DNA from: Planctomycetia bacterium
GTDB taxonomy: Bacteria > Planctomycetota > Phycisphaerae > Phycisphaerales > SM1A02
Length of the DNA stretch: 40,566 bases
Direction: 5' to 3'
Assembly (NCBI GenBank): GCA_005790565.1
Contig: SXUJ01000023.1
Coordinates: forward strand, 1-40,566
Shown piece by piece: positions 25,588 to 29,764 of the stretch. Both the position numbers and the translations under genes were made by a program. The notes under the pieces are model-generated. The model was not told the DNA's origin, made no database searches, and saw only the letters and a program-made list of their open reading frames with translations. Position 1 is the stretch's first letter; every line of letters begins with the position of its first letter.

Positions 25588-26424
25588 CTAGTGCTCTTGT
25601 CGCACGAATGATCGCGCCCACGCAAATCCCATAGGAACTCCGACGAGCGAACCGACCGCCCAGTCGAGTGGCATCACAAAGAGCAGGCTCGGAAGTTTGT
25701 TCGACACGAAGAGATCAGCGGGAGCGTTGAGGCCATTGAAGACGAAGAAGGCTTGACCAACCGCCGCTGCCAACAATGGCGCAGCCACAAGCACGACGGG
25801 TTGGGTGTGCGGGGCGAGTACCCTCCCCACCACGCCCACGAGGAGGCTCGCCACGGCTGCCGCACCGATGGACTGACCCTTCATCGCACTCACCACGAGG
25901 AAGGACGCGAGAATCGGAGCGAGGATGCCCGCGAACCAACTCTTCCGCGCTGCTCTTCCAAATGTCGCATCGAGTTCCACTTCGTGCGTCACTGGGAAAT
26001 CAGGCAGCCTCCCAGAGAATCGAAAAATCAGGATCGATGCGAGTGCGAGTAAGAGCGCCCAGACTGCAGTCTCGAGTGGCATGAGACGCATCACGCTCGT
26101 GCCGAAAACGAGATCCTCCACGGTTCCCGTGCGCATGGAGAGAACACCAAGGCCGGCACCGACGACGAAGAGTCCGACGAGCGCGTTGACGAGTCGTCCA
26201 ACGACTGCGCCAATTGCGACCATCGCCGCGAAGCAAATCAGAAGCACCGTGATCGCAAGGAACGGGCGGAGGCTGTCACTCGCGAGCGGCCCTGGCACGC
26301 CGCGATCGCCGAGTAACGGAGTCACTGCAAGGATGCTGATGAGGCTCGCCACGGCGATACCGAAGACAAGCACCGCCACGCGGCGAGGTGCGGATTCTGT
26401 CTTGGGTTGTGCCGCTTGTTGCAT
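25588..26424 (-). CDS. Polytopic membrane protein of unknown function
   Basis: This 278-residue protein has about seven hydrophobic helices, a short basic/polar N-terminus (MQQAAQPKTESAPRR) and one larger cytoplasmic loop (RFSGRLPDFPVTHEVELDATFGRAARKSW, about 140-168). It has the small-residue-rich helix composition of a transporter-like or cell-division-type membrane protein, but I recognise no family. It is the first gene of a run that continues with the PfkB kinase, the secreted peptidase and MurQ. A TACACT box (26434-26439, minus) ends 9 bases before the ATG. It is divergent from hutH. Confidence 0.7.
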   Translation of the reverse strand: MQQAAQPKTESAPRRVAVLVFGIAVASLISILAVTPLLGDRGVPGPLASDSLRPFLAITVLLICFAAMVAIGAVVGRLVNALVGLFVVGAGLGVLSMRTGTVEDLVFGTSVMRLMPLETAVWALLLALASILIFRFSGRLPDFPVTHEVELDATFGRAARKSWFAGILAPILASFLVVSAMKGQSIGAAAVASLLVGVVGRVLAPHTQPVVLVAAPLLAAAVGQAFFVFNGLNAPADLFVSNKLPSLLFVMPLDWAVGSLVGVPMGFAWARSFVRQEH

Positions 26425-26439: not shown

Positions 26440-26503
26440 GCAATCGCAAGCGCGCCGATGCGCGAACGGGACTCGCTCACAACGACTGCGCATGCGAATG
26501 TGT

Positions 26504-26509
26504 TAGGCT
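26504..26509 (+). promoter_or_regulatory. TAGGCT -10 box of the hut operon
   Basis: TAGGCT ends 6 bases before the ATG (26516) of a seven-codon mini-ORF that precedes hutH. The spacing is the same as at other predicted leaderless starts in this window. No -35 is obvious. Confidence 0.35.
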
Positions 26510-26515
26510 CCGCCC

Positions 26516-26539
26516 ATGAGCGGACGGATGCAACCATGA
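26516..26539 (+). CDS. Seven-codon leader mini-ORF coupled to hutH
   Basis: ATG AGC GGA CGG ATG CAA CCA TGA encodes MSGRMQP. The stop TGA (26537-26539) overlaps the hutH ATG (26536-26538) in the classic ATGA arrangement, and hutH itself has no good Shine-Dalgarno site. The mini-ORF would begin at the predicted transcript start, so ribosomes could load on the leaderless ATG, terminate and re-initiate at hutH. Whether it is translated is unknown. The geometry is seen directly; the mechanism is inferred. Confidence 0.35.
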   Translation: MSGRMQP

Positions 26540-28084: not shown

Positions 28085-28090
28085 TACAAT
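28085..28090 (+). promoter_or_regulatory. TACAAT -10 box before hutU
   Basis: TACAAT ends 6 bases before the hutU ATG at 28097, predicting an internal leaderless promoter. The GGAG at 28092-28095 is too close to the ATG to be a useful ribosome site. Confidence 0.5.
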
Positions 28091-28096
28091 CGGAGA

Positions 28097-29764
28097 ATGA
28101 CGACAGCCACTCCAACGGCACGCGAGATTCGCGCTCCTCGAGGTAATGACCGCGTGTGCTCTTCGTGGGCGGCCGAAGCGGCCATGCGCATGCTGATGAA
28201 CAACCTCGACGCGGAAGTCGCGGAGCGGCCAAACGACTTAGTCGTCTATGGAGGCCGTGGTCAGGCGGCGCGAAGTTGGGAAGCGTTCGATGCAATCGTG
28301 CAATCATTGCGCGGACTGAAACCCGACGAGACCCTACTTGTGCAGAGCGGAAAACCCGTTGGCATCGCGCGTACGACCACGGACTGTCCGCGCGCGCTGA
28401 TTGCGAATTCCAATCTCGTTCCATTTTGGGCGACGCAGAAGCACTTCGACGAGCTCGCCCTGAAGGGGCTCATCATGTTCGGTCAAATGACTGCGGGAAG
28501 CTGGATCTACATCGGCACGCAAGGCATCGTGCAAGGGACATACGAAACCTATGCCGAATGCGCCCGGCAACACTTCGACGGCTCCCTCGCGGGCACACTC
28601 AATGTGACGGGTGGCTGTGGAGGCATGGGCGGCGCCCAGCCACTCGCAATCACCATGAATCAAGGCGTTTGCCTCATCGCCGATGTCGCACGCGAGCGAC
28701 TCGAAAAGCGCGTCCACGATCGATACCTTGACGAGGTCGTCTTCGATCTCGATGGCGCGATTGATCGCGCGCTGGAGTTGAAAGCGAAACGACAGAGTGT
28801 GTCGGTCGGCTGGCTCGGAAACGTGATCGATCTCCTGCGAAGGCTCACGGAACGCGGCGTTACGCCGGACACGCTGACCGATCAAACGAGTGCACATGAT
28901 CCATTGCACGGTTACTACCCACAAGCGATGACGCGCGAGGCAGCGGACGCATTGCGGGCGAGTGACCCTACGGAGTACACCGCGCGCTCGATGCAATCGA
29001 TGGCCGAGCATGTGCGACTCATGGTCGCACTCATGCGCAAAGGCGCGAAGACTTTCGATTACGGCAACAACATTCGCCAGCGCGCCTTCGACGCGGGCTA
29101 CGCCGAGGCGTTCGAGTTTCCTGGATTCGTGCCTGCCTACATTCGCCCGCAGTTCTGCGTTGGCCGGGGCCCATTTCGCTGGGTCGCGCTCAGCGGCGAT
29201 GCACAAGACATCAAGACGACCGACGATGCGCTACTTCAGCTCTTTCCAGAGAACAAGTCGCTGCACCAGTGGATCACGATGGCGCAGGAACGCATTGCCT
29301 TCCAAGGACTGCCCGCACGCATCTGTTGGCTCGGATATGGCGAGAGGCACAAGGCAGGACTCCTCTTCAATGAACTCGTACGCACCAAGAAGGTGAAGGC
29401 GCCCATCGTGATCGGACGCGATCACTTGGATTGCGGCTCCGTCGCCAGTCCCAATCGCGAAACGGAAGGCATGCGCGACGGAAGCGATGCCATCAGCGAT
29501 TGGGCGATTCTCAACTTCGCACTTGCGACCGCATCGGGCGCAAGTTGGACGAGCTTTCATCACGGCGGTGGCGTCGGGATCGGATACTCGCAGCATGCTG
29601 GGCAAGTGATCGTCGCCGATGGGACGGACGAAGCGGCAAAGAGACTTGAGCGCGTGCTGACCAATGATCCGCTGATGGGCGTCCTACGCCATACCGATGC
29701 GGGGTATGACCTCGCGCGCGCGTGCGCGAAGAAGCACGGCATCACGATCCCCTGCTCTGCGTAA
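28097..29764 (+). CDS. hutU: Urocanate hydratase
   Basis: This 555-residue urocanase uses a tightly bound NAD+ as electrophile to hydrate urocanate to 4-imidazolone-5-propionate. It shows [11 protein letters not shown] (residues 51-61, active-site Tyr), the Gly-rich NAD site [13 protein letters not shown] (172-184), and Cys410 in [13 protein letters not shown], at the same position as the essential Cys410 of the Pseudomonas putida enzyme. [19 protein letters not shown] and [16 protein letters not shown] follow. Length is standard. It is co-directional with hutH, and the rest of the pathway lies elsewhere. Confidence 0.97.

Follow-up and report, generated by a model that had tools for sequence, protein, structure and literature searches.

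The window analysed here, a 40,566-nucleotide stretch from a planctomycete of the order Phycisphaerales, carries a gene for histidine ammonia-lyase, hutH, whose product scores 572 bits against TIGR01225 (cut-off 539), and the next open reading frame after it encodes urocanate hydratase, hutU. Directly ahead of hutH lies a mini-ORF, ATGAGCGGACGGATGCAACCATGA, which reads as the seven codons of MSGRMQP followed by TGA. In 5′ to 3′ order the region consists of TGTTAGGCT, the six bases CCGCCC that separate the hexamer TAGGCT from the mini-ORF ATG, and ATGAGCGGACGGATGCAACC ATGATTGAC, with hutH continuing from there. The mini-ORF stop (26537-26539) shares two bases with the hutH ATG (26536-26538), and the resulting ATGA is an overlap of the RTGA type, in which the TGA of a small ORF falls on the RTG of a gene. 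The initial annotation had described a seven-codon frame that follows TAGGCT, ends on the hutH ATG and contains no His codon; the sequence is exactly as described, and translation confirms the lack of His. Slippage of ribosomes out of the mini-ORF and into the hutH frame was considered and dropped, a slippery heptamer being absent at CAACCATG. The features are collected in Table 1.

Table 1. Features at and around the start of hutH (positions in the window)
Feature	Position	Strand	Basis
Putative extended -10 element of the hutH promoter, hexamer TAGGCT at 26504-26509	26501..26509	+	conserved in the genus; genome-wide TANNNT peak
Predicted RNA 5′ end, on the A of the mini-ORF start codon, 7th base past the hexamer	26516..26516	+	inferred from box geometry and modal gap of 6
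Mini-ORF MSGRMQP, second in-frame ATG at 26528	26516..26539	+	sequence; absent from three congeners
ATGA, hutH start codon over mini-ORF stop	26536..26539	+	sequence; ATG aligned with G001 and G003 starts
hutH, histidine ammonia-lyase, 510 aa	26536..28068	+	TIGR01225 above cut-off
hutU leaderless-type start, TACAAT-N6-ATG (ATG 28097)	28085..28099	+	sequence; same geometry in G001 and G002

The hexamer, noted earlier simply as a box, is very likely the -10 element of hutH, as judged from comparison with three other genomes of the genus (G001, G002 and G003), the closest sequenced relatives, whose HutH proteins are 80-83% identical to the one encoded here (~17-20% different). The motif TGYTAGKCT lies 16-26 nt ahead of the hutH start in all four sequenced species of the genus, as TGTTAGGCT in the window, TGCTAGGCT in G003 and G002, and TGCTAGTCT in G001; the distance from box to start is 26 nt in the window, 24 in G003 and G001, and 16 in G002. 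By itself TAGGCT is no rarer in the window than chance would have it (3 seen versus 2.98 expected), so that the case for the box rests on its position and conservation, rarity playing no part. The genome holds just two instances of TTAGGCT-N4-9-ATG, and a scan for sigma-70 promoters found no full promoter here, the -10 part alone being recognisable. Since the mini-ORF ATG sits six bases past this conserved box, which is the commonest leaderless distance in this genome, the RNA 5′ end is predicted to fall on its A, at 26516.

That distance was obtained from 789 kb of sampled stretches (~30% of the 2.66-Mb genome), on which 560 genes were called with a simple home-made gene caller; its starts are imperfect, and hutH itself was placed at an upstream ATG. 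When the spacing between TANNNT and the start codon of first-in-transcript genes is counted, 29 genes have a gap of 6 and 21 a gap of 7, where the background is 1.6 per position. Gaps of 8, 9 and 10 add 8, 7 and 6 genes, and gaps 6-10 together hold 71 of the 333 first-in-transcript genes (~21%). Starts of this class show no Shine-Dalgarno (SD) enrichment, with a mean anti-SD value of -3.67 versus -3.78 for the control. Because a TANNNT peak 6-7 nt before starts is combined with the lack of SD enrichment, leaderless messages are likely to be common in this genome. As for the frame of the ATG, TANNNT-N6-8-ATG is in frame with a gene in 54 cases and out of frame in one, which is the mini-ORF, while control hexamers followed by N6-8-ATG are in frame 9-18 times and out of frame 5-14 times. 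A sequence survey lists Planctomycetes among the phyla whose non-SD genes carry a leaderless and/or S1 signal (PMC5397173), and our literature search for mapped transcript starts with leaderless mRNAs in planctomycetes returned nothing direct. Many leaderless starts in the lineage would bear on start-codon annotation in Phycisphaerales, and this matters more than the mini-ORF itself.

About 35 of ~59 distinct hutH genes from the wider Phycisphaerales have TANNNT-N5-11-start, all in the hutH frame, so hutH looks often leaderless in the order, whereas in the present genus it appears to have a short leader. In another family of the order (L006, L009, L011 and L024) hutH has a strongly conserved leaderless-type start, TATGCT-N7-ATG, with ASC-CAGCCG-like codons behind it.

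For the window, the choice of ATG 26536 as the hutH start is supported by N-terminal length and by alignment with the starts of the congeners. From this codon to the 'LTI' motif there are 18 residues, as in G001 and G003 (17 in G002), the codon aligns with the hutH start codons of G001 and G003, and from the TAGGCT box as far as the conserved part of the N-terminus the hutH frame holds no other ATG, GTG or TTG. The earlier remark that hutH lacks a clear SD site was right, in that the anti-SD duplex before this ATG reaches -6.3 kcal/mol, a value equalled or beaten by 18% of control sites. Such a lack is ordinary here, because first-in-transcript genes in this genome show no SD enrichment.

One could suppose that the gene once began at the leaderless position itself. 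A one-base deletion between 26519 and 26535, whether real or an assembly error, would have broken an in-frame leaderless hutH start, and with one base added ATG 26516 would read into HutH. The many in-frame leaderless-type hutH genes of the order fit this idea, as do the ratio of 54 to 1 in its own genome and the presence of ATGCAACC in the window at the place of ATGCAAACC at the G003 start. Yet none of the three congeners starts hutH at the leaderless position, ATG 26536 aligns with their starts at equal N-terminal length, and the site holds no homopolymer; we consider a lost base improbable.

The initial annotation would have counted a short frame and an ATGA conserved in related Phycisphaerae as support, and their loss in close relatives as refutation; the comparison of upstream regions came out as the latter. 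In the three congeners no ATG or GTG follows a box at a distance of 5-11 nt and hutH has no ATGA overlap, and G003 has TCATCCTCACGAGTGG at the position of CCGCCCATGAGCGG in the window. Short ATGA mini-ORFs also lie ahead of 13 of 280 genes versus 11.0 expected from shuffles, which is no enrichment, and no second leaderless mini-ORF handing over to a gene was found in the 789-kb sample. As the mini-ORF is absent from three congeners and overlaps of this kind occur no more often than by chance, it shows no sign of selected regulation; rather than a conserved switch, it is most likely a leader that arose accidentally and may be translated. In random 26-nt leaders of the same composition, an ATGA-ending mini-ORF from any start arises with p ~0.07, and one that starts exactly 6 nt past the box with p ~0.0085. 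Some such coincidences are expected across a 2.66-Mb genome, and the present one came to notice through inspection by eye; the latter value still leaves some room for selection in the lineage.

A selected regulatory uORF, in which the leaderless mini-ORF gates hutH by termination-reinitiation according to the state of ribosomes or initiation factors, would make use of the modal leaderless gap seen here, and in mycobacteria such coupled architecture is conserved even where the peptide is not (PMC4633059). Against it stand the absence of the architecture in three of three congeners, the lack of genome-wide enrichment or of a second case in the sample, and a leader with neither a fold that would hide the hutH start nor a His codon, which makes this reading unlikely. 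For the possible regulation of histidine degradation by the mini-ORF we saw no sign: besides the missing enrichment and the missing second leaderless case, the leader has no stable fold (z +0.9 to +1.4, no better than shuffles) and matches no Rfam family, and both a structured leader and an Rfam element were dropped as candidates. A histidine attenuation leader was rejected as well, as MSGRMQP has no His run, no terminator-like site was found on the plus strand, the two ORFs overlap and the z values just given show no stable fold. Like the his leader and the proposed cysteine-rich uORFs of mycobacteria, the mini-ORF is a short ORF ahead of an amino-acid metabolism gene; unlike attenuation leaders, it has no His codon, no plus-strand terminator-like structure and no conservation.

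The reading we prefer, at roughly an even chance, is that of a leaderless mini-ORF which arose by chance, which is probably translated, with coupling to hutH, and which is tolerated without having been selected as a regulator. The sequence, the conserved box, the leaderless signature across the genome and the absence of conservation are observed; its accidental origin, its transcript start, its translation and its coupling are what we infer. Under this reading the extended -10 box TGTTAGGCT, conserved in the genus, would drive hutH transcription, and the RNA would begin at A26516 or next to it; HutH, like its counterparts in the congeners, would be translated from ATG 26536, behind a leader of ~20 nt. 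That leader would open with AUG in this species alone, giving a leaderless frame of seven codons that ends in ATGA. Some 70S ribosomes would start at 26516, read MSGRMQP, come to the TGA at 26537-26539 and reinitiate at ATG 26536, while direct initiation at 26536 would contribute alongside. Ribosome loading at the mini-ORF AUG is probable because many genes of this genome appear to start on 5′-terminal AUGs. ATGA is by far the commonest overlap between co-directional neighbouring genes (43 pairs), and as both this overlap and a box at gap 6 are routine here, a route of leaderless entry and then reinitiation is mechanistically reasonable. With the ATGA overlap maintaining hutH expression, the chance mini-ORF would be tolerated. 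The earlier idea of reinitiation from a leaderless mini-ORF is partly supported, by the box, the modal gap of 6 and the overlap, and finds no support in the congeners or in any sign of regulation.

It may also be that the mini-ORF is purely incidental, which we hold to be possible though doubtful. The RNA would then start a few bases off 26516, or its 5′ AUG would go unused, and the 30S subunit would initiate hutH directly on a short non-SD leader, presumably as in the congeners. These use the same promoter with leaders of ~10-18 nt that lack a mini-ORF; there is a weak SD-like match ahead of 26536 (the -6.3 kcal/mol duplex), and leaderless gaps range from 6 to 10, which makes the exact start uncertain. 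The position of the mini-ORF ATG speaks to the contrary, as it lies at the modal gap and ATGs at that distance are nearly all gene starts (54 to 1).

Such an initiation had been called unusual, but leaderless small ORFs coupled to genes by an RTGA tetramer have already been described in Mycobacterium (PMC4633059). The likeness lies in a short ORF at the RNA 5′ end (here predicted) whose TGA falls over the start codon of the gene, and in a peptide sequence that need not matter. In the mycobacterial work, however, the starts had been mapped, coupled small ORFs were over-represented and one example was conserved between two species (PMC4633059), whereas the hutH mini-ORF has a predicted start, no enrichment (13 versus 11.0) and no counterpart in the three congeners. 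In E. coli, 5′-terminal uAUGs are translated and their loss moved downstream expression up or down, with ptrB cut to <8% (PMC4965119). These cases resemble the present one in that 70S ribosomes can bind an AUG at the 5′ end ahead of a leadered gene, and downstream expression can change as a result (PMC4965119); the difference is that the E. coli uAUG genes have SD sites, while hutH has no clear one and its uORF ends exactly in ATGA.

Should the mini-ORF be translated, hutH would provide a natural test of how a leaderless-rich bacterium copes with an accidental AUG at an RNA 5′ end, with the ATGA overlap expected to rescue hutH. To our knowledge, the planctomycete lineage lies outside the groups in which such leaderless coupling has been described. 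The strongest form of the proposal, in which hutH is fed by obligatory termination-reinitiation from the leaderless mini-ORF so that histidine breakdown in this lineage is regulated, we regard as very unlikely.

The neighbouring genes carry similar start signals. The TACAAT-N6-ATG of hutU begins 16 bases past the hutH stop, and TANNNT-N6-ATG at hutU is kept in G001 and G002; hutH and hutU may thus be transcribed separately. The window, G001 and G002 share this hutU start, but the sequence that directly follows hutH in G003 (L003) lacks it, and the pair may be split there. On the other side of hutH, the divergent gene at 25588-26424 (minus strand, start 26424) has a leaderless-like TACACT-N9-ATG, a pattern that is kept in G003.
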